Shown one piece after another: positions 862 through 20,059 of a stretch of 20,076 nt of DNA (position 1 is the stretch's first letter; every line of letters starts with the position of its first letter). Source of the stretch: Baffinella frigidus (taxonomy: Eukaryota > Cryptophyceae > Cryptomonadales > Baffinellaceae); assembly GCA_026770585.1 (NCBI GenBank), contig MU648052.1, forward strand, positions 3,626-23,701. Direction: 5' to 3'. The notes under the pieces are model-generated. The model was given only the letters and a program-made list of their open reading frames with translations. It had not been told where the DNA came from and did not search any database. Both the position numbers and the translations under genes were made by a program.

Positions 862-1187
862 TGAGAGACGAAGTAATAAGGACGCTAAGCTGTAAGGTCA
901 GAAGGCTATCATGGGAGCCTCTCCAGGCTTCCATGCTACTTAAGGGATCAAGTTAAGAATAGCCTTCTGAAGTGAAGACTTACAAAAGTCAACTTTGGAA
1001 GAAAAGTAACGTGACTAATGAAGGAGGGGCCGGAAAAGGGCTCCAAGGATCCGGGAGGATCCAAAGGCTCGCTTTCCGGCACCTTGACATTTTCCCGACA
1101 CGACTTTGTGTCCTCGTCTGCGTCACCCGCCGTTGCCTGTGAGCAGAGCATCCCCTGCCCTGCTTCCCCCGGCTACGGCCTCTATTA
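862..1187 (+). repeat. 5' LTR of element 1
   Basis: It starts TGAGAGACGA and ends CTCTATTA, matching 13221-13535. The first ~177 bp differ from the 3' LTR at only about three positions and the last ~55 bp are nearly identical, but the ~110 bp between differ heavily with indels. That variable part starts with a hairpin: GCCGGAAA at 1029-1036 pairs with TTTCCGGC at 1073-1080. A palindrome, GACTT (977-981) and AAGTC (986-990), is conserved in all three LTRs of the window. No clear TATA box is visible. The 3' end is TA rather than the usual CA. Confidence 0.93.
1029..1080 (+). other. LTR hairpin (5' LTR)
   Basis: GCCGGAAA and TTTCCGGC form an 8-bp perfect outer stem. The interior holds two GGATCC motifs. 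The equivalent places in the other two LTRs also form strong hairpins of different sequence, which points to a structural role in the RNA, perhaps near the polyadenylation or R region. The role is inferred. Confidence 0.7.
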
Positions 1188-2083
1188 GGCTAGCGCCCTG
1201 CCCCCACGCAGCCCTGCTCACAGCTAGACGGCGTAGCGGCGCCCTGGTCGGGATTCCAGCGCCGACCGCCAAAGTCTAGACAGAGAATGATTCCGGACAC
1301 CGATCCGAAGCCGGCAGACCGAGACCCTGTAGAACCAACCGAGCACGATTCCAGCGCCGACCGTCAAAGTCTAGACAGAGAATGATTCCGGACACCGATC
1401 CGAAGCCGGCAGACCGAGACCCTGTAGCACTGACAGATCATAGCAAGCCTCAGCCCCTCCGGAACCGCTAGGGAGCCAGTCCAACCATCGCTCCGCCGCG
1501 ACAGCGCCGATAGCTCGTTGCCCAGACAGAACTGATAGATCTCCGCTCCACCCGACGATCGAAGACCGACGAACCGACGCCGCTCGCTACGATTTGCACC
1601 CGACAGACACACTTGCACCGGACCTCACTGCCCACCGCAACCAATAGTTCGAGGCATAGTGACTGGCCACAGACGGACGGCCTTGCACCGGGCCCAACCG
1701 ATCATTTGTCTATGGATGGCCACGGGGAACACCCATGCTTGGCCGAGCATCCCCGTCAGGTAAGGTGAAGTGATCGGGAGTCGACTGGCACCAGTCGTTT
1801 GCTCCAGCACTGTACTCACCCTCCACGGATGCAAATGTGAAGGAGAGCAACGGCAATCCCCCTAGCCGTAGTGTCAGTCTCAGCCGAACCACCAACCCCG
1901 GAAATGCAATCCCAGTCAAAAGTCTCACAACAGGTCCCTCCCTCGAACAGCGAGCACGGACACCGTCTCCGCTACCACCAAACCACCGCTCTCACCGAGC
2001 CTCTTCGGGGAGACACCTCCTGCTCCAGCCACCGTCTGAGACGCACCTCCGTGATGCGCACGTGAACACCTCCGTCCAGCGAC
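1188..2083 (+). other. Untranslated leader of element 1
   Basis: These 896 bases separate the 5' LTR from ORF1, an unusually long leader for a copia element. The bases after the LTR (GGCTAGCGCCCTGC) do not begin with the TGG expected for pairing with a tRNA 3' CCA, so primer use is unclear. The leader has upstream ATGs: one small frame at 1871-2065, in the ORF1 frame and ending just before it, and another at 1837-2175 that overlaps the ORF1 start in a different frame. These would hamper simple ribosome scanning. The packaging signal probably lies here, but I cannot point to it. Confidence 0.7.
1252..1427. repeat. 95-bp tandem duplication in the leader
   Basis: The block beginning GATTCCAGCGCCGACCG at 1252 recurs at 1347 and runs through TCTAGACAGAGAATGATTCC to GAGACCCTGTAG, with about one mismatch over 81 bp. 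The spacing is 95 bp. Near identity means a recent duplication or active homogenisation. Its place next to the 5' LTR would suit a dimerisation or packaging element, but that is speculation. Confidence 0.92.
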
Positions 2084-3655
2084 ATGAGCGGGAATCCCCT
2101 TCAACGGGTTGGAGGAGCCCTCCCCGGTCAACCAGCCGGCAGCATGCGCCGTCGCAACACCAGCGCCCAACGTAACGCGGCACCCGCTGCTGCTGGCGGC
2201 TACGCTCAACCACCGGACCACACCGCTCCACGCTTCGCGCCCAGCAACTCCAGGGAAATCGCGCTCGGGCACCTTGGGGAGCACATCCACTACAACACAA
2301 CGATGGGCCTCCCCACCGACGGCATCTCGCTGGAGCTGTACTGGACTGGCCCCGAAGGGATGATCCCCGCCCCAGCTCAACCGCAGCAGCGAGGCATGCA
2401 GCGTTGGTCTCCCGGCCCGCTGTCGGAATCTCCAGCCGCCAGGCATCGGCGCGAGCGCTCCATCACCGGATCACCGAGATCCAACGCCGGGCAATTCGGC
2501 GAACCACCGAACTTCGGAGCGATACCGCCGTCTGGAGGCCTGTTCCCACCGAACGGAGGAATCGCACCACCGCAAGCGGTACCCCTCGCGAACATGCCGC
2601 CGCAAGCTCCTCCCGGAGGCCAAATCTTCCAGCCCCACCCTCCGCAGGGAGGACCTCCCGGCCAAGCGGAACCTCCAGTGCATCCGGTCATCGCGCCCTC
2701 CGAATTCCGACCCCCGCTGGAGCGCTACACGTTCTTCGTCGACCGGGAACGCCAGGCCTGGCGAGTCAGCAGCGACAACGCCTACCTGATCCCCAACCCG
2801 AGCACCTCCGACTTCCACCACTGGGACCCGAACCTCCTCGCGCGAATGTGCCGCATCTCCTGGGACGAATTCCGAACCACCATCAACCGAATCCTCTACC
2901 CGCAAAACACGGAATGGAACGCCGTGCAGCGCAAACGCCAATCTGCGGACGAGTTCCAAACTCTCCAGCAGTACCTCACGTGGAACCAAGGCCTCAACAG
3001 CAACCTCCAACAGATGCTTAAGACCATCTTTCCAGTGTACAACGAGTGGATCCGCCTCATGGTGTTGACCCCCGGATGCTCGTTCCGGTTCATGGGATTG
3101 GACCACGAGGTCCCGCAGCACACCACCCTGCCGCTCGACGTTCTCCAGGAAGTGTACGAAGCACTCATCACCTCCACCTCTCAGGGAGACTCGATCAACC
3201 CAGCTCCGTCCAAGTTCATCTCCCTCTACAACCAACGGGACCGTTCCGCACACCACATGTGCACGGTGATCGAGGTGATCCTGGACTTCTACAATGCCTC
3301 AGTCGACAACCCCCTGAGCGGCGAGGTTCACTTCCTTTGGCAAGGCTGGTCCCACGAGGCCGTACTCCGCTACCTGTCCGCGTACATCGCAGATATGGAA
3401 CACACGTTCCGCAACGTGCTCGGGTACCACACCCTCGAGCCAAACCTCCGTACCCAGCTCCAGCTGCTCGTCGGACACGTCCACGCACTGTGCTGTGACA
3501 TAGCCTCAGCGCACCAGTGGACCTGCCCCGCGACACCTACGTTCACCTTCCAGACCTTCTCTCATCAGGAGACCGAGTACATCACGGACCGCCCTACGAT
3601 CAACTTTCGGACCGTCCTACACCCGATCGACCTCACCCAAGTACACGGCACGTAA
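2084..3655 (+). CDS. ORF1: putative structural (Gag-like) protein, 523 aa
   Basis: I do not recognise this protein by sequence. It is the first ORF after the leader. An in-frame stop at 2063-2065 makes ATG 2084 the likely start, and it has a purine at -3. Residues 1-215 are low complexity, rich in Pro, Gly, Ala and Gln, with Arg-rich patches (near 20 and 120) that could bind RNA. From about 220 to the end the protein is mainly helical in character, with Trp-rich stretches (HHWDPNLLARM, ISWDEFRTTINRIL) and no zinc knuckle. Position and composition suggest a capsid or Gag-type protein, or an accessory ORF beside the Gag-like part of ORF2. Its frame differs from that of ORF2. The ORF2 frame is open back to 3504, so the two overlap by about 150 bases. 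Confidence 0.8.
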   Translation: MSGNPLQRVGGALPGQPAGSMRRRNTSAQRNAAPAAAGGYAQPPDHTAPRFAPSNSREIALGHLGEHIHYNTTMGLPTDGISLELYWTGPEGMIPAPAQPQQRGMQRWSPGPLSESPAARHRRERSITGSPRSNAGQFGEPPNFGAIPPSGGLFPPNGGIAPPQAVPLANMPPQAPPGGQIFQPHPPQGGPPGQAEPPVHPVIAPSEFRPPLERYTFFVDRERQAWRVSSDNAYLIPNPSTSDFHHWDPNLLARMCRISWDEFRTTINRILYPQNTEWNAVQRKRQSADEFQTLQQYLTWNQGLNSNLQQMLKTIFPVYNEWIRLMVLTPGCSFRFMGLDHEVPQHTTLPLDVLQEVYEALITSTSQGDSINPAPSKFISLYNQRDRSAHHMCTVIEVILDFYNASVDNPLSGEVHFLWQGWSHEAVLRYLSAYIADMEHTFRNVLGYHTLEPNLRTQLQLLVGHVHALCCDIASAHQWTCPATPTFTFQTFSHQETEYITDRPTINFRTVLHPIDLTQVHGT

Positions 3656-3728
3656 ACTCCTCCTCGGCACCACCACGGACGTCCACGAGTTCGGGGACTC
3701 CTGGCTAGACACCACCCGGGAAGTCTTC
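3504..3728 (+). other. ORF1/ORF2 overlap and possible +1 frameshift window
   Basis: In the ORF2 frame the nearest upstream stop is TAG at 3501-3503, so ORF2 could be entered anywhere from 3504. ORF1 ends at 3655. Moving from ORF1 to ORF2 needs a +1 shift, the direction used by yeast Ty1. The ORF2 ATG at 3729 has a poor context (T at -3) and lies 73 bases after the ORF1 stop, so re-initiation is the alternative. I do not see a known +1 slippery heptamer. Confidence 0.5.
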
Positions 3729-6700
3729 ATGGATTCCACCGAAATGGCCACGGGCACCGGACCAACCACCGAAGCGCAATGGAACCTGAGCATTCAGAAG
3801 AATCCGCCCCAGGGCCTCTCCGCCTACGGATCCGTCCCGGCGTTCACTCCTCTCCACCCCTTCCCGGGGTACGGAGCACCACCCGTGGCGATCCCAGCGA
3901 CAGTCTCGTCCTCCGCCATCGTCCTGGCAATCGCCGACGGCTCCCTGTGGTTCGTCCGCCAACGTGGAATGGCCAAGGCACCCTGCGACCTTCCCCGAGG
4001 CAAGTCCCCGTTCGCCGGCAAGACCGATCTCCTCGACATCGTCGAACACCTCAAAGCCATGCTCAAAACATGGTTTGGAGGTGTGGACATCACGGGCCTC
4101 CTGCGCAACTACCCCTTTCTCAACCAAAAGAAACGGGTCTTCGAGAACGTCATCCCGGGCACCTACGACAGCGACGGCCGCAACAACCCCGAATACCGCG
4201 CCAAAGTCGGGAAGATGTGGGCTGAGATTTTCCTCAAAGAAAAGCACACACCTTTCTACGCCGCAGTCATGGAGCTTCTCGCCCAGCTCGGGCATCTCAC
4301 CATCGAGTCATTTATGCTCGATGAGAAACACTGGTGGGAGTTCACCCTCGCCATCGAAGAATACCTCGCCATGATCGCGCTCTGGGTGGGCAAGAAACAC
4401 CTCGCCAACTCCTGCTTCGTCGGCATCAGCAGCTCCCTGTGCAACCTCGAGCTCGGACACTCGACGGATGACATCCCGGTGCAATACCTCCTACAGATCG
4501 TGTCCATCTGGCAGCTTGCCCTACGCAACACCCAGGAATCGGTCCTGGAGCTGAAGAAGGACTTCCGCGACGCTCTCCAGTTCCGGAACAACATTCTGTC
4601 CGATGAAACCTGCGAGAAACTCGCCGCCCTCCAAGGAACGTGGGCACGCGCCCCCAAGGACCTGAAGGCGCACGTCCCAGACCTCCTGGTGACATCCATC
4701 GAGCGGGCCATCCAAGTGACCCTTGCGATCGACGTCAACTGCGGACACTACAACAAGCTCCTCATCACCCAATTCCAGACAAAACTGATGCCTATCCTCT
4801 CTGAGGGGGGCTTCACTGGACCGGGCGCGTACACCATGCAGAAATTCTGTGAAGATGTCCGCGAGATGAACCGCTTGGGACGCGTCCTCGAACTACGCAT
4901 GAACACCACCGACGAGCACGAAACCCCCCTCAAAGTGGGGATTCTGGCAGCCAACCTCTTGGATAACAACGCCAAGACACCGGCACGCAAAGGCACCCCA
5001 GGCCCGGCAGCCAACACCGAAGCTAGGCTATGCCTCTACTGCGACAAACCCGTCAAATGGCACCCCACCATGACGTGGGCGCAGCACGACTGCCCGGCGC
5101 CACGCAAAGACCGGGGGCGCTCCTCCTCCCCGTCTGGGTGCCGCCGGTGCAACAAGCCTCGTCACGAGTGTACTTGCGCATCCTCCCGCTCACGTAGCCG
5201 CGATCGCTTGGATTCCCGAGGACGCAGCCATGGCCGGGACGACCTCCAGGACACCACCGCCAACCCCACCTCCACCTGGGTGCCCCACCCTCCGGCTCAG
5301 GGCCGCGACCGTCCGAACAACGACCGCGGTGGTGGCAACAGGCGTACCATCGGCCACGGGCGCACCTCGACTATGTGCACCCTGCTCGCGTCCCTCGTCA
5401 TCGCGACCAGTGTCCCCTCGACCCTCGCCATGACCACGGACTTCTCGGAGACACCTATCCCGATCATCACCGCCAGCTTCGTCAACATCTGTGCGCTGAT
5501 AATGACCGCGATGACCATCTCCACCATGACGCGTCTCGCCAATGTCGGTCTCCAATTCGCGACTATCTTCCTCCCGGCTTGGGCATATCACGCACACCAG
5601 CCGATGAACAGCACGGAGACCAACACCATCTGCGCCTCGGCTCTACTGCTCATGGCCGCAGCAATGAGTGCTTTCACCCTGTCGTCCATCTTCGTACACC
5701 GCACCAACAAAATCACCGCAATATTCCGACTGATGCGCCTTCTCGCCACCATCGGCGTGATGATGACTATTGGAGCCGCGATCCTTGGATCCCTCTGGAT
5801 ATCCTACCTGGGCCACGAGCGCGTTCCTGGCAAAGCAACAGCAAAGAACTCAACACCGTACGTCACCTCGATTACACCGTTCAACTCTACGCCGCTTACC
5901 CCAGCGTGGATGAACGAGACAACCGCCGGCACCCGCCCCACCGGCAGTCACCTCAGAACTCACTCTGAGCGCAACATCTCTCTCTCGGATCTCCCTCTCT
6001 CGAGGAGCCCGTGGGACGCTCAGGACGAAGAATCCACGATCGGCGACCATCTCCTGCGGGCCTCCTGGACCAACGGAGGTCTCCACCACCTTTTCACCTC
6101 GACATGGGTGCTCAGCGTCTTCCTCGCAATGAAGACTTTCTCTCATCACATGTGCATGCGCATCCACGATGCCACGCACAGCACTCCGAAGAAGATCCCG
6201 ACTCTGCACCGTCGCGCGTACATCACCGCGCTACTGTTCACGCTCCTCCTCCTGCGAGGCACTAGTGCCCACACCTCCTCCTCGCTCACGCCTGGAGTCG
6301 AGACAGGAACCAGCTGCTCGCACTTCGCGGGAGAATCGACACCAGCAGCCACCACCACCGCCGAACCCACGCCGACGGCTGGAACCGCAGCAGCCCCGCA
6401 CGCGTATCAGCACCATGTGCCGGGCGGAATGGCCTCGAGCACCTCCCTTGACAAGGAAGGTCCCTCGACGAAAGAGCCGCCAACCTCGAACCAGTCCGAC
6501 GACCGCTCTCACGGAAACTCCGCAGATCCTCCTCCGTCCGCGCACCCCCACGCAGGATCTCTACTGGAGCGGTACGATAAGCTGCTCGCAAGCACTTCAT
6601 CTCTTCCGGACAGCCTCCTCAGCTCTATCTACCTCATCGACACAGGCACCCAGATCACCCTGGTGTGCTCGATGCAGAATCTCACTAACGTGATCGAGCT

Positions 6701-9700
6701 TTCTACCCCCATCGCCTGGGGGGGAGCCAACGTCGGAGCCGCCCAACTCGCAACACACAAAGGGGACCTCACGGTCCACCTGTGCACCGATGACGGGAGA
6801 GCTCACCCGACTATCATTCCGGGAGCCTACTACTCGGCTACAGCGCGCCTGAACGCAGTGTCCACCAGCGACTTGCTCGCTGCCGAAGTGTCCCTCCAAC
6901 TCGACACCGAACGGCCTGGTGAAGCGACAATCGTCTTCAACGACTCCCGTAACACCCGGTGCGTGTCGAAAGTGAAATGGATCGAAGCACTTCCCTTCCT
7001 TCCGACCTCCAACTTCCAGGAGCGTTCCGACTCGAACTCTGCGCTCGAACACCCGTCGATTTTCTCCTGCCTGCTCGGCAAACTACCACCAGCCGACTAC
7101 ATGCATCTGATCTTCGACCACTGTCCCAAAGAGGTGCTTCAACGCATCCTCGCCAGGACAGTCGGCTTGGCCTCCAAGACCTTGAAGTTCTGCAACATCT
7201 CCGGCAAATGTCACACGTGCATGGAAACACGTGGGCGCGTTCCGGATAGCAACGACTCGGAACTCCCCGAAATGGTGCTGGAAATCGACGACTTGTGGTG
7301 CATGGATCTGCTCAACTTCCCCAACGCACCGAGCATGGACGGCAACAAACACTGTCTGATCATCATTGATGCCTTCTCATCGTACCGCACCGTACTGTTC
7401 GCACCTACGAAGAACGGGCTTATACCCCAGTTGGAAACCTACCTCCAGTGGCACTTCAACTACACTGGCCGCCGCCCGAAAGCCTTCCAAACGGACGGCG
7501 CCGGCGAACTAGCTGAAAGGAACATCACTCAGCTGATGACTAAGTACGGAATCTCCCAACGCCTATCTGAACCGTACGATGCTCGCGCGAACGGTCGCGC
7601 TGAGAAAAGCGTTGACATGGCCTGCAAGTACCTTCGCTCTACTCTGCAGCACTCTGGGCTGTCCTACAAATTCTGGCCCCACGCCTTAACCTACTGGACT
7701 CAAATCCGCAACCGCATCCCACTGCGCAGCAACGCCACCAGTGCAGATGACAAAATCGGAGAAAGCCCCTTCTCCGTATATTTCCCGGGAGCAACCAACG
7801 ACATCTCCTCGTTCGCTATCTTAGGCGCTTTCACCACAATCCATCTCACCAAGCAACGTATGCAAGACCTGGGTCTGCACACGAAGCTGGATGTCAACAG
7901 CCAATCCGGAGTGTTCCTCGGCATCTCACCTCCAGGACGCTCACGCAAGGGCATGTACGTCTACATCAAATCTCTGAACAGAGTGGTGGTTGTGCGAAAG
8001 GGCAACGTCGATGGCACATGGCTCCCGTACCGGAGAATCAATCGACGCCTCAAAGCTTTCGAGAACCCGGGCCTTCCGGAGTCCATGCTCCTCACCCGCG
8101 AAGAGCTTCAAGGGCAACTCTCGAGGATGCACCTCGACTTCCCGGACATTGAATTGACCCACGAGGAAGAAGAGCACAACACCTTCGAGATCTCCGTGCC
8201 CCACGCGGATGATGAGGACCTGGCCGCACTCTACGCTCCACGGAACCACGCGGGATCGGGTCAGATCCTGCCCCACCAAGAGAGCCTCGATCGTCGGGAC
8301 ACCAATCGATCCAGGAGTGACAGAAGAAATGCAGAAGTTCACCAGAGCTTTCGCGCACAGCGCAAGCAAGCCTGGAGCTCCCTCTTGGACAGCCAACTGG
8401 TCGCGTTCTTCGAAACCTTCCGGATCGCTCTTCTTCTTCCCGCATCCTTCTTTGGACCCGACTCCAAACGCTACGCCATCCGCGGACATCGCATGCGACC
8501 AACTGTCCCGTACCCCGACTCGGTACGGATGGCCGGATACCAAACGCTCGGTGTTTCCCCTTCTTCAGATTTCCAGGACTGGGTCGCAGGCCCAGGCTCT
8601 GGCATTCTTGGGGACCTCCATGTTCACGGATCGCACTCTCTACGCGTTGCCCTGGGATCTCGGTGGCCACTGGCAACTCCCCTCGAAGACCTGGCGGCCT
8701 CCAGTGATTTCGGAGCCGACATCCTCGAACCTCCGGAGCCGGCACCCTCTCGTGCCGAGCTTTTGACCAAGAAACGTGCGCGATCGCTCGAAGCCGCTGC
8801 CTCATCTGCTGCCGCCAAGCAAGCCAAAGCACGGTCGACAACACCCGAGCGCCACTCAACGTCTCCTCGCCGATCTCCGCGTGGTCAACCCGCAGCTCTG
8901 GCTACACTCTGTGCAGCACTCACATGGAGCAACCCCATCGAGCAACCATCAACGACTCCCGCACCGGAACCGTTCGTAGTCCTTACCTCCTCTCAAGCCG
9001 CCCAACTCGTGTGCAACATGACGGACATGCTCCACATTCCTCGCTGGGCAGCAGTCCCGACTCCACGAGCTGACCTCGCTGTCGCGGAGCGTGCTCTCGC
9101 CGCCGCCTATACCAACGCGTCCTACGAACACTGCGACATGCACCAGGACACCGGCAAAGTGACAACTCTCCAGTCAGTGATAGTCGGTGCAACCGTATAT
9201 CCTGACGCTCTCGACTCTACTCTCGTACACCACCGTCTGCTAGCTCAAGCCACAGACGGATCTACAAGAATGATCGGAGTCTCGGAACTGGCACACCACC
9301 ATGCGGTGGAACCTGGGCCAGCCAAGATCCACGCACCAACCGTACTTTGGCTCCCGGCAGCAACAAATCAGCGTGACTCACGTTTGACTGTCTCCGAAGA
9401 GCAAATCGAAGCCGTTGAGGAATTCTCCAGCGATCTCCCTGATGAAGTGTCGCGCAACTGGACTAAAGATGACGAACACTCGTACTCGTCATCTCCTGGC
9501 GCCACCTCCATCCGTGTTTCCTCCATGACCGCACCGCCTGAACACATAACATCCACGGAATCACCAGCGCCGATGGTGAACGTCGCATCCCTGGGACTCT
9601 TGGCATGCGCCGCATCGTCTCTGATCGACCTTTCCTCTCGACCGGAACCTCCCCCGGAAGCTCACGAAGAGCCGGCGGATCGGGCCATCAAAACCGCACT

Positions 9701-11441
9701 GCTCAACGTTCCCCTTGGCCTCTCCGACGCCCCTGGGAACCTGCGGGAGGCCCGCCGACGCCCCGACTGGGAAGAATGGAGGACTGCCTGCCTCTCTGAG
9801 ATGAACACTCTGATCGAGAACGGCACGATCGAACTCGCGAAACCACCTCCGGATGCCAAGATCGTACAATCCACCACCAACCTACGCATGAAGCGCGACG
9901 CCGACGGACAGCCCTGCCGTCGCAAGGCCCGCTTCTGCGCTCGAGGCGACACGTACTCCGCGGGCAAAGACGTCCCTATCTTCGCCCCTACAGCACCCTG
10001 GCCCATCGTTCGAATGCTGTTCGCCATCGCATGCGCCAACGGTTGGAGCGTCAAAACTTTCGACGTGGCTGCGGCCTTCACCTCCGTCGACAGAACGGGC
10101 CTCCCAGATATCTGGCTACGGGCACCTCCTTTCTTGGGCTATCCTGTGGATCACGCCTTCCACCTCAAGAAGAACCTGTACGGCTTCGCACACAGCCCTC
10201 AGGCATTCTACGACGACTACTCTGCGTTTATCCTCAGCCTCGGCTTTGAGCGATGCTCGTACGATAAGACCCTTTTCAAACGACACACGAGCCTCGGCAT
10301 CATCTACATGAGTATGTACGTCGACGATGCCCTGGTCGTGACATCTACTGAAGAAGCCTGGATAGAGCTCATCTCCGAAGTTGAGGCCCGATACGAGCTC
10401 TCCAGCAAGGGTGACGCCACACTCCACCTCGGTCTGACCGTCGAACACGACCTCGAGAAAGGAACCCTCACCCTGGGCAACACCAAGTACATCGAACTCC
10501 TTGCTGAACGCTTCAACATTCTGCTCGACGCTAAGGAAACCACCCCCTTCAAAACTCCGAAGACACGCCTCTATCCAGGCGCGGTCACCGGAGAATCCGT
10601 GGTGGGACTTCGTGAACAACAAGCGTACCGTGCAGGAGTCGGCAACGTCAACTGGCTGGCAACCACCAATCGACCCGACCTGTCCTTCGCGGTCTCGCAA
10701 CTCTCCAGATACATCTCCGCCCCGACGCCGACCCACGTGGTGGCACTTCAGCACGTGCTCCGCTACGTTGTTGCCACTCGCGCACAGGCGATCACGTATC
10801 ACCGGGACCCAGTCATCTGTCCGGCAATCCGCACCGCGGAGACACCCGAGATGGTCGACAGGAACCAACTGTGCGGCTTCTGCGACGCCGACTTCGTGAA
10901 TGACGTAGCTACGAGGAAATCCCACACCGGATATGTATTCCTCCTCAATCACGCTGCCATCGACTGGAAGTCGTCTCAACAGCGCCTCGTAGCATCTTCC
11001 TCTACGGAATCTGAGTACCTGGCACTGTCGCACTGCGTCAAGACAGCCCAGTACATGCGCCACATCCTGAGCTTTCTGGACCTCCCGCAGGAAAGCCCGA
11101 CTCCTATCTTCGAGGACAACGCCGCATGCATCTGCCTGTACAACAGCGACTCCCACGAGAGCCGCGTAAAGCACTTGGACATCCACCTCCACAACGCGCG
11201 CGAGCACGTCGCGAGAGGCACCATCGTCCTCCACTACGTCACCACGGCGTGCCAAGCCACAGACTTCTTGACCAAAGCCGTGGCCAACGCTCTGATGTCT
11301 CGCCCCATGGCGGTCCTCTTCGGATCCGCGATCTCCGCCTGGGATAACGGCACCAAGGACATGAAGCGCCCGGAGCAGCGCTACCTGGTACCATTTGCTC
11401 CTCTCAGCGCCAAGCCCGCCCTGGACGCTGGCGCCAAGTGA
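3729..11441 (+). CDS. ORF2: Gag-like/membrane/copia Pol polyprotein, 2570 aa
   Basis: A single open frame. Residues 1-430 are helical and Gag-like. Cys/His motifs follow: C435-x2-C438 with H445, H453, C455, and C471-x2-C474-x4-H479 with C481, C483, both unlike the standard CCHC knuckle. Residues 549-850 form a membrane-type block (separate entry). The aspartic protease motif LIDTGTQ has D971. The integrase has H1126-x4-H1131 and C1161-x2-C1164, then catalytic D1193, D1256 and E1292 (exact D-35-E spacing). A linker of about 500 residues contains a basic, nuclear-localisation-like stretch near 1681-1720 (KKRAR...SPRRSPRG). The reverse transcriptase starts near 2015, with FDVAAAF (D2112) and YVDD (D2199, D2200). 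RNase H shows D2386, E2429, D2463 and D2484. All are expected copia residues, so the enzymes look functional. Typical copia polyproteins have about 1400 residues. Confidence 0.96.
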   Translation: MDSTEMATGTGPTTEAQWNLSIQKNPPQGLSAYGSVPAFTPLHPFPGYGAPPVAIPATVSSSAIVLAIADGSLWFVRQRGMAKAPCDLPRGKSPFAGKTDLLDIVEHLKAMLKTWFGGVDITGLLRNYPFLNQKKRVFENVIPGTYDSDGRNNPEYRAKVGKMWAEIFLKEKHTPFYAAVMELLAQLGHLTIESFMLDEKHWWEFTLAIEEYLAMIALWVGKKHLANSCFVGISSSLCNLELGHSTDDIPVQYLLQIVSIWQLALRNTQESVLELKKDFRDALQFRNNILSDETCEKLAALQGTWARAPKDLKAHVPDLLVTSIERAIQVTLAIDVNCGHYNKLLITQFQTKLMPILSEGGFTGPGAYTMQKFCEDVREMNRLGRVLELRMNTTDEHETPLKVGILAANLLDNNAKTPARKGTPGPAANTEARLCLYCDKPVKWHPTMTWAQHDCPAPRKDRGRSSSPSGCRRCNKPRHECTCASSRSRSRDRLDSRGRSHGRDDLQDTTANPTSTWVPHPPAQGRDRPNNDRGGGNRRTIGHGRTSTMCTLLASLVIATSVPSTLAMTTDFSETPIPIITASFVNICALIMTAMTISTMTRLANVGLQFATIFLPAWAYHAHQPMNSTETNTICASALLLMAAAMSAFTLSSIFVHRTNKITAIFRLMRLLATIGVMMTIGAAILGSLWISYLGHERVPGKATAKNSTPYVTSITPFNSTPLTPAWMNETTAGTRPTGSHLRTHSERNISLSDLPLSRSPWDAQDEESTIGDHLLRASWTNGGLHHLFTSTWVLSVFLAMKTFSHHMCMRIHDATHSTPKKIPTLHRRAYITALLFTLLLLRGTSAHTSSSLTPGVETGTSCSHFAGESTPAATTTAEPTPTAGTAAAPHAYQHHVPGGMASSTSLDKEGPSTKEPPTSNQSDDRSHGNSADPPPSAHPHAGSLLERYDKLLASTSSLPDSLLSSIYLIDTGTQITLVCSMQNLTNVIELSTPIAWGGANVGAAQLATHKGDLTVHLCTDDGRAHPTIIPGAYYSATARLNAVSTSDLLAAEVSLQLDTERPGEATIVFNDSRNTRCVSKVKWIEALPFLPTSNFQERSDSNSALEHPSIFSCLLGKLPPADYMHLIFDHCPKEVLQRILARTVGLASKTLKFCNISGKCHTCMETRGRVPDSNDSELPEMVLEIDDLWCMDLLNFPNAPSMDGNKHCLIIIDAFSSYRTVLFAPTKNGLIPQLETYLQWHFNYTGRRPKAFQTDGAGELAERNITQLMTKYGISQRLSEPYDARANGRAEKSVDMACKYLRSTLQHSGLSYKFWPHALTYWTQIRNRIPLRSNATSADDKIGESPFSVYFPGATNDISSFAILGAFTTIHLTKQRMQDLGLHTKLDVNSQSGVFLGISPPGRSRKGMYVYIKSLNRVVVVRKGNVDGTWLPYRRINRRLKAFENPGLPESMLLTREELQGQLSRMHLDFPDIELTHEEEEHNTFEISVPHADDEDLAALYAPRNHAGSGQILPHQESLDRRDTNRSRSDRRNAEVHQSFRAQRKQAWSSLLDSQLVAFFETFRIALLLPASFFGPDSKRYAIRGHRMRPTVPYPDSVRMAGYQTLGVSPSSDFQDWVAGPGSGILGDLHVHGSHSLRVALGSRWPLATPLEDLAASSDFGADILEPPEPAPSRAELLTKKRARSLEAAASSAAAKQAKARSTTPERHSTSPRRSPRGQPAALATLCAALTWSNPIEQPSTTPAPEPFVVLTSSQAAQLVCNMTDMLHIPRWAAVPTPRADLAVAERALAAAYTNASYEHCDMHQDTGKVTTLQSVIVGATVYPDALDSTLVHHRLLAQATDGSTRMIGVSELAHHHAVEPGPAKIHAPTVLWLPAATNQRDSRLTVSEEQIEAVEEFSSDLPDEVSRNWTKDDEHSYSSSPGATSIRVSSMTAPPEHITSTESPAPMVNVASLGLLACAASSLIDLSSRPEPPPEAHEEPADRAIKTALLNVPLGLSDAPGNLREARRRPDWEEWRTACLSEMNTLIENGTIELAKPPPDAKIVQSTTNLRMKRDADGQPCRRKARFCARGDTYSAGKDVPIFAPTAPWPIVRMLFAIACANGWSVKTFDVAAAFTSVDRTGLPDIWLRAPPFLGYPVDHAFHLKKNLYGFAHSPQAFYDDYSAFILSLGFERCSYDKTLFKRHTSLGIIYMSMYVDDALVVTSTEEAWIELISEVEARYELSSKGDATLHLGLTVEHDLEKGTLTLGNTKYIELLAERFNILLDAKETTPFKTPKTRLYPGAVTGESVVGLREQQAYRAGVGNVNWLATTNRPDLSFAVSQLSRYISAPTPTHVVALQHVLRYVVATRAQAITYHRDPVICPAIRTAETPEMVDRNQLCGFCDADFVNDVATRKSHTGYVFLLNHAAIDWKSSQQRLVASSSTESEYLALSHCVKTAQYMRHILSFLDLPQESPTPIFEDNAACICLYNSDSHESRVKHLDIHLHNAREHVARGTIVLHYVTTACQATDFLTKAVANALMSRPMAVLFGSAISAWDNGTKDMKRPEQRYLVPFAPLSAKPALDAGAK
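5373..6290 (+). other. Membrane/envelope-like block within ORF2 (residues ~549-854)
   Basis: Hydrophobic segments lie at residues 549-568 (signal-peptide-like, ending SVPSTLAM), 576-600, 608-622 (weaker), 634-656, 669-695, 788-806 and 830-845. Between the last two groups, and in one short loop, are five Asn-x-Ser/Thr sequons (in MNST, KNST, FNST, MNET, RNIS). A Thr/Pro/Ser-rich, mucin-like stretch then runs to the protease. The block lies after the zinc motifs and before the protease, where copia elements normally have only a short spacer. I infer a multi-pass membrane domain with a glycosylated luminal loop that the protease would release. I do not recognise a family. Confidence 0.8.
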
Positions 11442-12042
11442 ACACCTTCGCCCGGCCTCGAACACCGGCGCCGTACCACCACCATCAAGGGATACTTCAC
11501 ACCCCTTTTATCACCTCTTCTCACCCATGTCTGGCCTCGCTGAGCCGGGGGGGGAAGGGTGTGAAAGCCAACCTGAATACTACAACACCGCCGGAAGAAG
11601 ACATCTCCAACGCACCTTCGAGGATCACCGCCGCCTTAGCCCCTCAGAGAGGGCGCAACCAACGAACAACAACGCTTCAGAGAGGGCCAACCTCTCTGAA
11701 CGTCGCCGTTTAGCCCCTCAGAGAGGGCGCAACCAACGGGCAGCAATTCCTCAGAGAGGGTTAACCTCTCCGAGAAGAAGACAAACATCTAAGACCTTCA
11801 TCTCCCTACCTCTCAGAGGACAAGGACGCGAATGATCACAACCAGCTCCCTAGAGAGGGCTGCAACGGATGTAAACGCAACGGACGCAATAACAGCCGAC
11901 TTCGATCGAAAGCGAGATTCCAAGTCTCTGCACGCGCAGTCGAAAGACTCACACTCCAACCTCGAGACTCGATCTCACACACTTGTTTTGACCCCTTTTA
12001 CTTGAAACACACCTCATCACAACCCACTAACCCACCTTCCTC
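11442..12042 (+). other. 3' untranslated region between ORF2 and the antisense gene
   Basis: There is no credible coding frame here. The stretch is marked by repeated CAGAGAGGG motifs and a tandem repeat (separate entry). The antisense gene ends at its right edge. No AATAAA is visible for that gene in the bases following its stop. Confidence 0.7.
11636..11783. repeat. 74-bp tandem repeat with hairpins and PPT-like motifs
   Basis: The unit beginning TTAGCCCCTCAGAGAGGGCG occurs at 11636 and 11710. Each unit ends in an inverted repeat. The first is perfect: TTCAGAGAGG (11676-11685), loop GCCAA, CCTCTCTGAA (11691-11700). The second keeps the hairpin with small changes (CAGAGAGGG, then CCTCTCCG). 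The motif CAGAGAGGG recurs about five times and closely resembles the GAGAGAGGG purine tract next to the 3' LTR. The repeats could prime extra plus strands or fold in the RNA. Both ideas are inference. Confidence 0.88.
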
Positions 12043-12669
12043 TCAAACCCGAGAGTAGAACTGAGACATGAGAGACTGGCGAAGGGCCAACGTGGGTGCT
12101 GATTCACGCCCCATGTAAATGACGTCATCGTCACTCTCAGAGTCCTCCTCGGACTCCTCCTCCGAGGATAACTCATACTCCTCCTCGGCTGTCGATTCCG
12201 ACCCGTAGTCTGAGCCTACCAGACTCCGAGAGTCCATCTCCGAATCGTCCTCAAACGACGCGACGATCTCCTCAGAGTCTTCCTCCTCGCCGGAGTCCTC
12301 CTCCCCCTGAACCTCCACGCGCGCACGAACCTTGCGGATAAGCGGTTCGTCCTCCGAAGAATCTTCATCATCGGAATCGACCGGACGAGACCACACCTTC
12401 CGACGCCCCAGCATCGACGGATACTGCGGAACCGGCTCGGTCACCCCGAGCTTGGCACGAAGGCGAGCCGACCGCTCAGCGACCCGCTTCGAGCGGCTCC
12501 TAGCGGAACGAGCGACTCCCAGCGATGCGACCACCCGCAGCTTCAGGACAGTCTCCCATTCCTCCGCCATGGCAGACTGAAGAGGGCGGCTCTCCTCCTG
12601 GCCCATCTCGTGGGCCTCGAGCGAAGCCGCGTAGCGCTGAGCCTTGAACTCGTTGAACGTGAAGATCAT
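12043..12669 (-). CDS. Antisense acidic protein, 208 aa, within element 1
   Basis: This ORF lies between ORF2 and the 3' LTR on the strand opposite to the element's other genes. I do not recognise it. Residues 1-60 (MIFTFNEFKAQRYAASLEAH...) look helical. Residues 55-75 are Arg-rich (SRSKRVAERSARLRAKLG). From about 98 onward it is dominated by Asp, Glu and Ser (DSDDEDSSEDE, EEEDSEE, SSEEESEEDSESDDD), followed by a short tail ending QFYSRV. This basic-then-acidic layout suits a nuclear or chromatin-binding, histone-chaperone-like or transactivator protein. No shadow of a sense gene explains it, since no sense ORF of note lies opposite. A TATAAAA motif upstream on the same strand supports independent transcription. 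Antisense ORFs near the 3' end are known in some plant retrotransposons. Confidence 0.8.
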   Translation of the reverse strand: MIFTFNEFKAQRYAASLEAHEMGQEESRPLQSAMAEEWETVLKLRVVASLGVARSARSRSKRVAERSARLRAKLGVTEPVPQYPSMLGRRKVWSRPVDSDDEDSSEDEPLIRKVRARVEVQGEEDSGEEEDSEEIVASFEDDSEMDSRSLVGSDYGSESTAEEEYELSSEEESEEDSESDDDVIYMGRESAPTLALRQSLMSQFYSRV

Positions 12670-12720
12670 GCTAGAAAAGCGTGGCAGTGGATGAAATCAG
12701 TGAGTGGATTCAGCAATCTC

Positions 12721-12727
12721 TTTTATA
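12721..12727 (-). promoter_or_regulatory. TATA-like box of the antisense gene
   Basis: The minus strand reads TATAAAA here, 52 bases upstream of the antisense ATG (12667-12669). With a usual TATA-to-start spacing of about 30 bases, the RNA would begin near 12695 and have a short leader. The region further upstream, 12728-12960, is AT-richer than the rest of the element, as promoters often are. Confidence 0.6.
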
Positions 12728-13211
12728 CCCCCCCGAAAACGGTTACATGCGTAATCAGTCAACTCTCGTGCCAAACTCTACGCCTCCTCATAGTCTGCTT
12801 AGCACCTATGAACGACTATTAGTCTACTACTACACCCCGTGGAATTACTCAACCGTAACTCCACAGGCTTCACCTTAGCGCCTGTCAAAAATGCCAATTA
12901 AGTTAACTTGCTGCGCCTCTGAAAATGGACACACCAAGCTTGCCCCCTATTTGACTAAACACTTCTAAAATTAAGGTACAATCCTTATTCGTGGAAGTAA
13001 CCTCTCGCTCTTTCTTTCCTCTGGTGAAACCTCAGGGAACTCGGATGGATTCTCCTTCAACCTCCTACTTACGGAATCCCCGACGCCACGGAGATCGTCT
13101 ACCTCCGTTAGTCGCCGTATCACGGCTTGACTACTTCTACGGAATCTCCGACCACGGAGATCATCGACCTCCTAGGAACGACGAGCTGCGAGAGTCCTCA
13201 CTCTAAGCCTT
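12728..13211. other. Non-coding 3' region of element 1
   Basis: I see no gene here. It holds the presumed upstream region of the antisense gene and, nearer the LTR, an imperfect duplication with a period of about 67 bp. One unit begins CTACTTACGGAATCCCCGAC at 13064 and the second begins CTACTTCTACGGAATCTCCG at 13131. Both contain CACGGAGATC followed by an ACCTCC block. The corresponding zone of element 2 has similar words next to its LTR. Confidence 0.6.
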
Positions 13212-13220
13212 GAGAGAGGG
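13212..13220 (+). other. Polypurine tract of element 1
   Basis: GAGAGAGGG ends exactly where the 3' LTR begins with TGAGAG. A purine run at this place primes plus-strand DNA synthesis in LTR retroelements. It confirms the LTR boundary and the plus orientation. Confidence 0.85.
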
Positions 13221-13535
13221 TGAGAGACGAAGTAATAAGGACGCTAAGCTGTAAGGTCAGAAGGCTATCATGGGAGCCTCTCCAGGCTTCCATGCTACTT
13301 AAGGAATCAACTTAAGAATAGCCTTCTGAAGTGAAGACTTACGAAAGTCAACTTTGGAAGAAAAGTAACGTGACTAATGAAGGAGGGGCCGGAAAAAGAA
13401 TCGAGGATCCGTTCTCGCTTTTTCCGGCACCTCAACTTTTCCCTGACACGATTCTGCGTCTCGCCTTCGTCGTCCGTCGCCTGCCTGTAAGCAGAGCATC
13501 CCCTGCCCTGCTTCCCCCGGCTACGGCCTCTATTA
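13221..13535 (+). repeat. 3' LTR of element 1
   Basis: It matches the 5' LTR end to end (TGAGAGACGA ... CTCTATTA) but is 11 bp shorter. Its hairpin is the strongest version: GCCGGAAAAAG (13388-13398) pairs perfectly over 11 bp with CTTTTTCCGGC (13418-13428). The palindrome GACTT/AAGTC lies at 13336-13349. The region from the hairpin to about 13480 is much more diverged from the 5' LTR than the two ends are. Confidence 0.93.
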
Positions 13536-13770
13536 ATAGTCACCGCCGACCTCCTAATCCCTAACCCAGCAGGTCCAAGCGGACATGACCAGGAGGGCAA
13601 GACCAACTTCTACTGCCGCACATGAGCCCTCGCCAACCCCTCGCCAACCCCTCCCCTCCCTCCCCACCGATGCTTTGTACTAACCTATGGTTGAGGCTCT
13701 TTCAGCCTCCGACTCTGCACTGCCATGACCTTTGCAACCCGCACATTACGGGTTCTAACCGTGCATCGAT
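13536..13770 (+). repeat. Repeat R, copy 1, right part
   Basis: The first five bases are the right target duplication (ATAGT). The sequence then continues the R copy broken at 861: CACCGCC(G/A)ACCTCCTAA, CAAGCGGACATGACC, GGAGGGCAAG and TGCCGCACA words occur in the same order at 14595-14690. The motif TGACCTTTGCAACCCGCACA at 13726 recurs at 14866. The limit at about 13770 is approximate. Confidence 0.8.
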
Positions 13771-14105: not shown

Positions 14106-14960
14106 GGGAGAAGACGACTGGGGCCGGCATCGTGGGCTCGACGAGGGGGGGCGGGGACGGCGCGCTCGACGGCCTCGCACGTAGAGGAGACTGGGTTGCG
14201 GCGTCACGCTGCTTCCAGTACCCGAGCTCACCCCAGGGGGGGGTGCGCCTACTAGGAACATTCTGATAGACTAGGGGAGAACGTGGAGGGCCAGTCACGC
14301 TATTTTGCCTGACAGGACCGAAACGCGATCCATCGGGAGCGGCCCCTTGAACCACAGCGGGCGGAGCCCAATGCTCTATTTGGGAAGCAAGGCCTATCTG
14401 ATCCTAGCTTGGGGACGGCACGGGCTGACACCGACAATCCTGTTTAATAAAGACGAAATCAACGAAATCAACTAATAAGTGTGTCTGGCTTGCCAAGGTG
14501 ATCACCCCCGGGTGGGCGCTGGCGCCCACGAGTTTTACAACGTGACGAGACAGCGAACCCTCATCAGGCCGCATCCCCTTCCTTCCCTTCATACTCACCG
14601 CCAACCTCCTAACACCTAACCCTGAAGGTTCAAGCGGACATGACCTGGAGGGCAAGGCCTACTTCTCCTGCCGCACACGAGCCCTCACTGGACTGCATCA
14701 CCCCCCCTCCTCTCCCGATTGCTGTCGTCCTAGACTGCATCATCCCCCCTCCCCTCCCGATGGCTTTCCTTGTATGTTGAGGTTCTTTGAGCCCTGCATC
14801 CTGACGTGTACCTTGCCGACCTTTTGCAGCCTGCAATTTCCGGGGGTTTGAATGTGCACCCCTTTTGACCTTTGCAACCCGCACAACTTTACAACCTCGC
14901 TGTATGTGTCGTTTTGTTTGCAAAATAAATAAATAGATTGACACTATTGTGAATTGTACG
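14106..14960 (+). repeat. Repeat R, copy 2 (uninterrupted, empty insertion site)
   Basis: This copy aligns with both halves of copy 1, so it shows the locus without element 1. The site is ATACT at 14591-14595. The first module ends in AATAAA-like sequence and CGAAATCAA units (to 14472). The second module starts near 14498 and has a perfect inverted repeat, GTGGGCGC (14512-14519) and GCGCCCAC (14522-14529). An approximate 42-bp duplication lies at 14691 and 14733 (GACTGCATCA followed by a C-rich run). The copy ends near AAATAAATAAATAG (14922-14937), perhaps a retroposon tail. No coding frame is convincing. Confidence 0.8.
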
Positions 14961-15146
14961 CCGCTCACTTGAGCCGGCGGCTCCGTGAATTTACTCAAAC
15001 ACCGTTTGGGGGTCCGCAGGTGAGGACAGCATACATCATCGCATGGACGGCGAGGACGGCTGCGGACGTGGGGCGGGGGGGGCGCACAGCATGCCTCGCG
15101 GCGGTGCGCCCGCGGAGGAACCCCTTCCGGGTCCCTTTGCTTCTGA
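14961..15146. other. Unassigned G-rich DNA between R copies
   Basis: I see no gene. The words GGGGGTCC, AGGTGAG and CATACATC near 15008-15040 loosely recall the DNA before copy 2 (13930-13980), so a more diverged part of the repeat may extend here. Confidence 0.4.
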
Positions 15147-15451
15147 GGGGCCTTTCCGGCATAGTGGGCTCGACGAGGGGGGGCGGGGACGACGCGCTCG
15201 ACGGCCTTGCGGCGGCGCGCCCGACAAGATAATCTTTCTTAGTTCGACTAGGGGGGGAACGTGTTGGGCCAGTCTGGCTGTTTTGGCCTGACAGGTCTGA
15301 CGCGCGATCCATCGGGAGCGGCTCCTTGAACCACAGCGGGCGGAGCCCAATGCTCTATTTGGGAAGCAAGGCCTGTCTGATCCTAGCTTGGGGATGGCAC
15401 GGGCTGACACCGACAATCCTGTTTAATAAACACGAAATCAACGAAATCAAC
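15147..15451 (+). repeat. Repeat R, copy 3 (first module only)
   Basis: It matches 14125-14472 from the GGCAT.GTGGGCTCGACGAGG motif to the AATAAA and CGAAATCAACGAAATCAAC tail, with one internal deletion of about 40 bp relative to copy 2. It lacks the second module, which shows that the two modules can occur separately. Ending exactly on the 9-base tail suggests this is a true 3' terminus of a retroposon. Confidence 0.85.
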
Positions 15452-18178: not shown

Positions 18179-20059
18179 TTAAAACGTGGTGTAGTGGCGC
18201 TCGAGGCTTCTCCGGTGAGGCCCGCCCTCGGACTTGAACAGCTCGTGGATCGCGCCGGAGTAATCTTCGAGTGAGTCGATGTCGATGCCGTAGGAGACGG
18301 CGCAGGAACGGGAGATCGCGGGGTAGCGCGCTTCACGGTCCTGAGAGGCGATAATCGCGACCTCTGCGTCGGGGACGCCTGGCGCGTAGAGGTGGACACG
18401 TGCCTTGGGGATGTCGAACTCTTGGAACATGGACGAGACCTGGTTGCCGCGGACGCACGTGGGATTGGCCCGAGGTTCCGGGAGGTTGGGCAACGACGAT
18501 GCCGCGTCCAGAGTTGGAACGTGTTCGAGGCGGTGGACGTGGGTGAGCCCAGCAAGGAGCCAGACGGGGAGACGCCCGCAGGGCAAGGTGTGGCTCTGAA
18601 TCCAGGTTGTCATGTTCTCCGGGGTGAGGCCCGCGGCGGCCAGCAGGGCATCGTTCGTGGCGGAGGAGGCAGCGACGCGGCGCCCGAGGATGTAGTCGGG
18701 AGGCCCGAAGTCTCCATCGGGAAGATTGTTCAATCCGTCGTCCCCCCTCTTGATCGGCAGCGCAAAGAAGAGGCCCTGCTCCGTCCCGGTGCCGACGGTG
18801 GACCAGTACAGAGTGTAAGTGCTGCGGTTGATGCCGATCGTCGGGGGGGAGGGTCCGATGCAGACTGTGAGGTCGCGCGCCATGGCGTGGTAGACCGACA
18901 GAGTGTTCTCCGCGAAGACGTCCTCGGAGGAGTATCGCACGAGCAGGGTGAAGGTCTCAGTCGCGGAGGTGATGAGCTCGAGGATGCCCCAGGCGATGCC
19001 TGGTGCCAGCTCGGGTATTTTGTACGCGGCCACTTCCGTGTCGGAGAGCAACTTTACGACGCCTTCAAATGCTGAATTCAGTCCGGACAGCGCGGTGGGG
19101 TCGAACGACATGCGAAGCAGAGGAGCGTTGTAGTCGTAATCGTCCTCCTCGTTGGAGCCGCTATCGCTCCCGAGCCACATGGGCTCCATGGGAGTCACCA
19201 GGAGGCCGGGCACGCTTGTACGTTCCGGAGGGCCCGACTCCACCAGGACCCATCTACGGGGGCGTTCCGGGGGGGCGGCCATGGCCGAGTCGTTCCGGCT
19301 TGCGTGCAGCGTCATGGCGAGGAGCAGGATGGCAAGACAGGCGATGCTCACGATGACGGGCGAAGAGGCGTAGGCCCAGTGCTCCGACGCGGAGTGAGTG
19401 ATCGTGCTCGCGGCCGCCGTGGTGAGGACTTGGGCGGCGGCCAGGACGGCTGTCCAGATCGTGCGCGTCCGGGGTGCGAGCTGCCCCGGGCCGCGGTGGA
19501 GGTATCGGCGCTTCTCGGAGCTCCCAGTCGAGGAATGCCCAAGAGCTGCCGGCGTCGGCAAGTGCGGCGTTCGGGGGAGCGGCGCGAGACGTGGTGGGCC
19601 AGACTGGTGGAGGTGTTCCTTCTGGGAATGGTGGCACGCCGGGCAGGTCGAGGTGTGCCCCGACGATGGGCACCCCGGGCTGAAGGGACGGTGGTCGGCG
19701 ACTGTTTTCGGGATTAATGTGAGTGCGCAGAGTACTGCGAAACCCTTCAAAAAGAGAATAATCTTCTCTCCTGAATCTGTCACGTTTCCCACGCTTGCGT
19801 CTATGCTGGATCTCATGACAGCGTGTGTGAAAACAAAAAGTGTTATGCGTCGTATGCAATGTAAAATTCGTGTAGGTGTATGTGTTTTGACTGTGTGCAA
19901 CAGGGTCATACAGATGATGTTGATGCTACCATAGATTATAGCTACCTGGTGTATTGGGATGATATTTTCCATTGCTTTGAGCAGTATTGTGATCATCGTC
20001 ATCATTACGACTCGTTCTATGCGGGACGTTATCTCTATGAAACGTTGTATCTGTGACAT
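18179..20059 (-). CDS. Putative membrane protein of element 2, at least 626 aa
   Basis: I do not recognise this protein. The frame has no stop between ATG 20059 and the window edge, so it may begin further right. The first ~120 codons are AT-rich and hydrophobic (about 17-56 and 100-118, the latter signal-like: ILFLKGFAVLCALTL), unlike the GC-rich remainder, so they may be leader, intron or transferred DNA. A Pro/His-rich part follows, then two likely membrane helices (201-219 and 233-251), an acidic patch (SNEEDDYDYN), and a soluble-looking domain of about 350 residues with at least two N-glycosylation sequons (NRST, NMTT). M249 or M82 are alternative starts. In element 2 it lies downstream of where pol should be, the usual place of envelope-like genes. 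The frame ends at TAA 18179-18181 but stays open beyond it. Confidence 0.7.
   Translation of the reverse strand: MSQIQRFIEITSRIERVVMMTMITILLKAMENIIPIHQVAIIYGSINIICMTLLHTVKTHTPTRILHCIRRITLFVFTHAVMRSSIDASVGNVTDSGEKIILFLKGFAVLCALTLIPKTVADHRPFSPGCPSSGHTSTCPACHHSQKEHLHQSGPPRLAPLPRTPHLPTPAALGHSSTGSSEKRRYLHRGPGQLAPRTRTIWTAVLAAAQVLTTAAASTITHSASEHWAYASSPVIVSIACLAILLLAMTLHASRNDSAMAAPPERPRRWVLVESGPPERTSVPGLLVTPMEPMWLGSDSGSNEEDDYDYNAPLLRMSFDPTALSGLNSAFEGVVKLLSDTEVAAYKIPELAPGIAWGILELITSATETFTLLVRYSSEDVFAENTLSVYHAMARDLTVCIGPSPPTIGINRSTYTLYWSTVGTGTEQGLFFALPIKRGDDGLNNLPDGDFGPPDYILGRRVAASSATNDALLAAAGLTPENMTTWIQSHTLPCGRLPVWLLAGLTHVHRLEHVPTLDAASSLPNLPEPRANPTCVRGNQVSSMFQEFDIPKARVHLYAPGVPDAEVAIIASQDREARYPAISRSCAVSYGIDIDSLEDYSGAIHELFKSEGGPHRRSLERHYTTF

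Follow-up and report, generated by a model that had tools for sequence, protein, structure and literature searches.

A conserved hydrophobic block separating Gag from the protease in polyproteins of a copia clade from a Baffinella frigidus assembly

Hydrophobic block within the polyprotein

The analysed stretch of the Baffinella frigidus assembly GCA_026770585.1 (contig MU648052.1, positions 3,626 to 23,701; 20,076 nucleotides, here called the window and numbered from its first letter) carries a full-length copia element of 12.7 kb (862-13535), in whose polyprotein seven hydrophobic segments lie between Gag-side Cys/His clusters and the aspartic protease. This block is under purifying selection, which is looser than that on the enzyme parts, and it recurs at the same place in related elements and proteins. 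An earlier note, made from the sequence alone, had described an envelope-like, multi-pass membrane block of about six hydrophobic segments inserted in a copia polyprotein ahead of the protease. The multi-pass-like block was borne out by hydropathy, by its conservation in the clade and by the selection acting on it, and the presence of several segments was confirmed, although their count is seven (four strong, three weak).

The block is encoded by open reading frame (ORF) 2 (3729..11441, on the plus strand like all features below unless stated otherwise; 2570 amino acids), which comprises the C-terminal part of Gag, the block, protease, integrase, and reverse transcriptase (RT)-RNase H. Kyte-Doolittle hydropathy in 19-residue windows gave strong peaks at residues 549 (1.67), 579 (2.03), 638 (2.06), and 671 (2.04), corresponding to segments S1, S2, S4, and S5, and weak peaks at residues 597 (1.10), 783 (1.15), and 830 (1.22). 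S1 (residues 549-567, 5373..5429) is signal-peptide-like and ends in P-S-T-L-A; it is followed by S2 (578-597, 5460..5519), the weak S3 with an FLPAWA motif (603-619, 5535..5585), S4 (636-656, 5634..5696), and S5 (669-690, 5733..5798). A variable loop of 77 residues (694-770, 5808..6038) connects S5 to the weak S6 (786-804, 6084..6140), after which HHMCMRIH follows, and the last segment, S7 (829-843, 6213..6257), is short, signal-peptide-like, and reads RRAYITALLFTLLLL, then T-S-A-H. The linker behind it (844-945, 6258..6563) consists to 44% of Ser, Thr, and Pro, compared with 23% for the whole of ORF2, and leads to the protease region with its D971-T-G-T motif (6564..6968). Five sequons are present in the block (residues 627, 707, 719, 729, and 749), four of them in the variable loop. 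The signal-like first segment, the five sequons, protease residue D971, and the Thr/Pro-rich stretch reported in the earlier note were all found in ORF2. Its zinc motifs ahead of the block correspond to two Cys/His clusters (residues ~435-483, 5031..5177) that appear nucleocapsid-like by eye, but a Pfam search of ORF2 gave no zinc-knuckle match at this place.

The likeness of S1 and S7 to signal peptides lies in a short hydrophobic core followed by mostly small residues at positions -3/-1, with Ala at -1. Across relatives, S1 ends in P-S-T-L-A, P-S-A-L-A, or P-G-T-L-A, and S7 is followed by T-S-A-H, A-S-A-H, or A-N-A-H; judged by these residues, the ends of both segments appear compatible with signal peptidase as an alternative to the protease, to which the earlier note had ascribed the release of the block, the S1 end G-I-T-A of locus L029 being a poorer fit. 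An AlphaFold2 model of the block contains helices across all seven segments, at low confidence. Four peaks of at least 1.6 within 320 amino acids came up in 1 of 300 shuffles when all of ORF2 was permuted and in 3 of 1000 when the block only was permuted, and a laxer threshold of 1.2 raised these counts to 12 of 300 and 72 of 1000, respectively. The single-sequence statistics for the block are only moderate, and it is taken as real because it is conserved across relatives. No significant match to the block was obtained in Pfam (best: YmgL, E 0.21; DUF5671, E 0.33), among the sequences of the PDB (best: BceB permease, 4.8), or, for this part of the window, in Rfam.

Database relatives were sought by three protein searches, each of which scored just ~8000 candidates sharing most words and may therefore have missed some. 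The first yielded nine proteins, and the second and third (the latter with the block as the only query) yielded P0010 alone. P0001 and P0010 bear the block at the same place of the polyprotein (64% and 55% identity over the shared part) and share the segment pattern of the window, with the S7 core of P0010 running to the end of this fragment. P0001 retains every Cys of both Cys/His clusters, and P0010 has Lys in place of the His of the second. Identity between ORF2 and P0001 amounts to 75% over residues 1-500, 58% over S1-S5, 56% over S6-S7, and 80% in the protease, and falls to 32% in the variable loop (28 gap columns) and 50% in the linker (34 gap columns). The best-kept segments are S1 and S7 (16/20 and 13/16 identical residues). 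No gap falls within S1-S6 in any of the three pairs formed by the window, P0001, and P0010, compared with 24-34 gap columns in the variable loop. Among the eight more distant proteins P0002-P0009, whose upstream reach was not checked for all, P0006 alone has a comparable block before the protease, with four hydrophobic segments (952, 1009, 1088, and 1148) ahead of the protease motif at 1276. Its first segment, ACTLLLG...VPYARA, and its last, RRASWAVLLITLFFL, resemble S1 and S7 by eye; identity to the window is 30% in part of the integrase and 27% in RT, the similarity of the two blocks is not significant (hhalign P 0.13), and shuffling of P0006 matched its cluster of peaks 6 times in 300 at a threshold of 1.6 and 50 times in 300 at 1.2. 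The interval between integrase and RT of P0006 also contains a stretch (residues ~1788-1857) with LFSG and PPCSTFS motifs, which presumably resembles a cytosine methyltransferase. Scans of viral contigs and prokaryote genomes revealed no relatives.

Distribution in the clade and selection

Further copies were sought in the same genome, a single assembly of 382 Mb in 1364 contigs. Searching with the block gave ten matches. A query chosen such that the block plays no part (residues 947-1430, protease to integrase) gave at least 26, from which three of 43-51 residues (contigs C443, C238, and C994) were dropped, and matches on one contig were joined. At least 15 contigs hold clade members with 58-100% identity to this query, which form two families. 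Family 1 comprises C1288 (the contig of the window), C1302, C1255, C1313, C1279, C1169, C1340, and C1229, and family 2, at ~60% identity, comprises C1304, C1270, C1346, C1296, C1277, C961, and C1212. Among the matches listed, 13 of the 15 clade elements have the block, whole or in pieces, at the same place, and the remaining two are truncated, one within the block and one below it: C1302 has S6-S7 alone because similarity ends at residue 785, and the match on C1340 starts at residue ~1108, with ~320 bases above it. None of the 15 elements reaches upstream of the protease and lacks the block. Some copies are damaged (C1313 has an internal stop in the block, and C1169 breaks below it), and in C1279, C1229, C1304, C1270, C961, and C1212 the block is split over frames. 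Four distant copia places with a D-T-G motif (C1224, C603, C104, and C236; 23-29% identity) showed no peak of at least 1.5 in the ~300 residues preceding it, a reach that in the window covers S5-S7 and most of S4 but not S1-S3, and a threshold at which weak segments are invisible. The block thus marks one clade as far as tested. The clade members with long matches are located on high-numbered contigs (C961-C1346; the eight of known length measure 19.5-123 kb), and the distant copia places also occur on C104, C236, and C603; the former contigs are possibly repeat-rich leftovers or derived from another organism.

In family 1, the motifs FLP.W...AHQ and HH.C.RIH.A.H are preserved. The block of family 2 (loci L009, L026, L027, L029, L030, L031, and L033) is of low identity to that of the window, reaching 24% over the main stretch of L009. 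At a peak threshold of 1.2 (1.3 for L033), S1, S5, and S6 were detected in all seven of these loci, and S4 and S7 in six each. S1 of this family reads LCS[LM][LM][TP]AL.IS.N. or VCTLMAAVMIAAN, and S7 reads R[KR]A[YC]..., its core being followed by A-x-A-H or a similar sequence.

Selection was assessed from the ratio of nonsynonymous to synonymous substitution rates (dN/dS), based on Nei-Gojobori counts over aligned codons. In the close family-1 pairs L003-L004, L003-L002, and L004-L002, the hydrophobic parts of the block had values of 0.13, 0.16, and 0.17, similar to those of the Gag C-terminus (0.19, 0.15, and 0.18), and the protease side gave 0.07, 0.15, and 0.06, all in the same order. The variable loop (0.58, 0.58, and 0.97) is near neutral, with 0.47-1.07 across ten pairs; four comparisons of the window with other copies gave 0.64-1.07. 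Compared with L003 and L004, the partial copy L006 gave four values of 0.09-0.20, and compared with L002 it gave 0.13 and 0.74; the partial copy L005 (72 codons) showed 0.20-0.24 in four comparisons. In six pairs of family 2, dN/dS of the block was 0.26-0.46 compared with 0.09-0.17 for protease to integrase. Because the block is kept across the clade and is under purifying selection, two of the outcomes named beforehand in the earlier note as speaking against it, relatives without the block or with a block not under selection, did not appear within the clade when other copies were examined.

Topology, proposed function, and alternatives

Under a model with seven spans and the N-terminus inside, most Lys and Arg residues near the segments of family 1 fall into loops that would be cytosolic (14/17 in the window, 19/22 in P0001, and 16/19 in P0010, counting the N-terminal flank as a loop), and none of these loops has a sequon in this family. 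In family 2, the charge bias fits the S4-S5 and S6-S7 loops and the X0-X1 loop between the extra segments described below. The charge pattern of family 1 favours an odd number of spans, by which Pol would become lumenal; owing to the weakness of S3, S6, and S7, this parity is tentative.

The chances appear even that the block serves as a multi-pass module which targets the Gag-Pol polyprotein to the endoplasmic reticulum (ER) and anchors its assembly there, a function suggested by its sequence features. The signal recognition particle (SRP) would catch S1 when Gag is already cytosolic, the segments after S1 would span the ER membrane, and the rapidly evolving loop would lie on the lumenal side. 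Cleavage by host signal peptidase past S1 and S7 may take place, which would leave Gag carrying a membrane tail at its C-terminus and release a multi-pass protein. Such a module would make explicit what Ty1 does without a recognisable signal, namely seeding of assembly sites by translation at the ER. Flavivirus polyproteins are cut by signal peptidase at internal signals. A more far-reaching and unlikely scenario would be a flavivirus-like copia lineage with a membrane protein in the middle of Gag-Pol between two internal signal peptides, in which a membrane-tailed cytosolic Gag, a freed, fast-evolving multi-pass protein, and a Pol passing via the ER lumen would yield membrane-wrapped particles by a non-Env route.

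Several observations weigh against a conserved ER-anchoring module. With seven spans and a cytosolic Gag, protease, integrase, and RT would be lumenal and unable to copy RNA together with Gag; this would clash with Gag and Pol assembling together, except if a weak segment fails to span the membrane, the block inserts only in part, or Pol moves back into the cytosol. The S3-S4 loop of family 2, which should be on the lumenal side, contains 4-9 Lys/Arg (three loci counted), and P0006 has no clear charge pattern. Segment conservation in family 2 is incomplete, as S2 reached the threshold in three of the seven loci and S3 in none, and six of them have extra, mostly weak segments between S5 and S6 (two in L026, L029, L030, and L031, one in L027 and L033, and zero in L009). 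The confidence of the AlphaFold2 model is very low (predicted local distance difference test score, pLDDT, 37.8), and every genomic copy comes from one assembly. With regard to selection, the value of 0.74 stems from the short comparison L002-L006a (109 codons, dS 0.08), and the hydrophobic parts of the window itself gave 0.34-0.51 against other copies (six comparisons, dS 0.70-1.24). In the comparison of block and RT proposed in the earlier note, the block is under purifying selection, with 0.13-0.17 in close pairs, but in the window it is less constrained than RT, whose dN/dS was 0.05-0.06 in comparisons with six loci of family 1 and 0.12 in that with L009.

The envelope assignment of the earlier note was not upheld, considering the near-neutral loop, the varying number of sequons, and the fact that no large Cys-bearing ectodomain was seen in the block. 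An envelope-like protein or fusogen, in which the freed block would reach the cell surface and let particles exit or pass between cells, is therefore regarded as improbable, but it has points in its favour. The block changes faster than the measured Gag C-terminal, protease, integrase, and RT parts and contains the near-neutral loop and the Ser/Thr/Pro-rich stretch; small transmembrane fusogens also give Env-less Drosophila retrotransposons cell-to-cell transfer (PMC11952523). In each of the six family-1 sequences compared, the interval from S3 to the beginning of S4 holds a sequon, at shifted places, which counts against a non-envelope interpretation, so that the block may be glycosylated, and in the BLASTP alignment the loop sequon of P0010 lands on residue 749 of the window. 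However, the long loop holds four sequons in the window, one each in P0001 and P0010, and none in L002, L003, and L004, and in family 2 sequons occur at other places. The seven segments differ from the layout of retroviral Env, with one signal peptide and a single C-terminal anchor, and Pfam gave no match to an Env family. A multi-pass layout with short loops is not known from viral fusogens. Fast change is not special to the block either, since ORF1 residues 61-210 are equally diverged from P0001 (53% identity). Two other routes to an Env were considered and rejected. That a separate envelope protein starts internally at M549 is unlikely, since this Met, kept in the window, P0001, L002, L003, and L004, is absent from P0010 (Lys) and from the family-2 loci read (Val in L009; Leu in L029, L030, and L031). 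A standalone downstream Env has no ORF of suitable size between ORF2 and the 3' long terminal repeat (LTR), where the only sense ORFs of at least 80 amino acids have lengths of 146, 91, and 82.

Three further explanations were weighed. A viroporin-like or membrane-remodelling helper that alters host membranes or ion balance instead of anchoring Gag would agree with the several short, weakly polar segments and the two motifs kept in family 1, but the channel and transporter matches in Pfam (YmgL, DUF5671) and the PDB (BceB) are the insignificant ones given above, and this role is considered quite unlikely. That no homology to any known retroelement domain was found in Pfam would suit a captured piece of a host membrane protein carried along as a functionless passenger; such an origin is nevertheless very improbable, as the block is present in 13 of 15 clade elements, being missing only where a copy or contig is cut, and the selection result, with dN/dS below 1 in two families, likewise disfavours such an origin. 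Chance hydrophobic stretches in a Ser/Thr/Ala-rich linker reach the segment count in 72 of 1000 shuffles at the lax threshold, but a mere composition artefact is hardly credible and is refuted by conservation, given that the segments are retained among relatives just 24-58% identical in the block and that the indels of family 1 lie outside them.

The host element, its surroundings, and known systems

The element is bounded by a 5' LTR of 326 bp (862..1187) and a matching 3' LTR (13221..13535), which differ by 16 mismatches per ~309 LTR pairs plus indels (21/314 in the raw comparison, five of these in flanking columns). ATAAT (857-861) and ATAGT (13536-13540) at its flanks form an imperfect 5-bp target duplication. 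An element-free, empty-site-like paralogue of the flanking host repeat is located at 14106..14686, where 14106-14593 matches 311-859 and 14588-14686 matches 13533-13631. One copy of the host repeat bearing the insertion (311-859, 14106-15452) has an uninterrupted target site. Downstream of the protease, ORF2 contains an integrase core (rve, PF00665; residues 1188-1284, 7290..7580; E 2e-7; 31.6 bits, 1 bit short of the cut-off of 32.6) and, behind it, a reverse transcriptase (RVT_2, PF07727; residues 2033-2273, 9825..10547; E 2.6e-24, over the cut-off). Two more single hydrophobic stretches are found between them (8397-8453 and 9570-9626; residues 1557 and 1948). The structure model of the Gag part of ORF2 (residues 57-440) is helical, with very low confidence (pLDDT 42.2). 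ORF1 (2084..3655; 523 amino acids) encodes the N-terminal, Gag-side part of the polyprotein; it has no Pfam match, and its identity to P0001 residues 1-500 is 53% for ORF1 residues 61-210 and 65% for 211-523. The single reading frame assumed in the earlier note extends in the window from the Cys/His clusters to RNase H, but ORF1 and ORF2 occupy different frames, which P0001 joins in one. The frame of ORF2 continues upstream of its first ATG with residues matching P0001, and the shift between the two frames (3655-3729) reflects either damage to this copy or a site of recoding.

Between ORF2 and the 3' LTR, an acidic ORF of 208 amino acids is situated on the minus strand (12043..12669). It was found in five other loci of the family (L011, L014, L016, L017, and L018; 59-68% identity over the main stretches). 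Differences favour the third codon position (33, 29, and 87 against L018, with a similar trend for L017, L014, and L011), and dN/dS is 0.15-0.37 in ten pairs. The aligned parts have no stop in L018, L014, and L011 and one in L017, and Pfam gave a weak match to DUF4746 (E 3.5e-4, below the cut-off). By its pattern of codon changes and conservation, it probably represents a genuine antisense gene belonging to the element. Outside the element, the first 255 residues of the minus-strand ORF3 (18179..20059; 626 amino acids) include several hydrophobic segments. ORF3 has no match in Pfam, and L015 192-577 holds a diverged, fragmented relative; kinship with the membrane block was considered and not found by BLASTP.

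With Ty1/copia elements (Pseudoviridae) the element shares the LTRs, the aspartic protease motif, an integrase preceding RVT_2, and Gag-side Cys/His clusters in the polyprotein, but it differs in its length of 12.7 kb and in the hydrophobic block between Gag and protease. The Pseudoviridae profile of the International Committee on Taxonomy of Viruses gives a range of 4 to >9 kb, lists no hydrophobic block at this place, and places env solely after gag-pol, in Sirevirus (PMC8515867). Sirevirus likewise has a predicted membrane protein of unknown function in a copia element, but its env-like gene is an own ORF after pol (PMC8515867; PMC3414828), whereas the block of the window lies inside Gag-Pol and no env-like ORF was found downstream of gag-pol in the window. 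In yeast, Ty1 RNA and Gag reach the ER via SRP, and Gag enters the lumen and is proposed to return (PMC3945221). Co-translational ER targeting of a copia polyprotein, the function proposed here, would be shared with Ty1, whose Gag is described as devoid of a recognisable signal, in contrast to the signal-like and hydrophobic segments of the window. Membrane proteins other than Env are also known from LTR retrotransposons of different groups: sORF2 of the Drosophila MDG1 group is a short transmembrane protein used for cell-to-cell transfer (PMC11952523), and bdelloid LTR elements have small transmembrane ORF3s (PMC5408684). The MDG1-group proteins are encoded by short separate ORFs, whereas the segments of the window are in frame with pol. 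Within the titles and abstract starts of open-licence papers that were searched, no membrane block separating Gag from the protease in copia elements was encountered, a coverage that does not establish absence from print.

Copia elements count as intracellular; an env-like gene occurs in them only behind pol, in a single plant genus (PMC8515867; PMC3414828). A conserved and selected membrane block within Gag-Pol would give a copia lineage a membrane step of its own. ER-coupled assembly, for which no signal has been identified in Ty1, would become testable via a discrete module, and the block would show another path for LTR elements toward an enveloped or cell-to-cell life.

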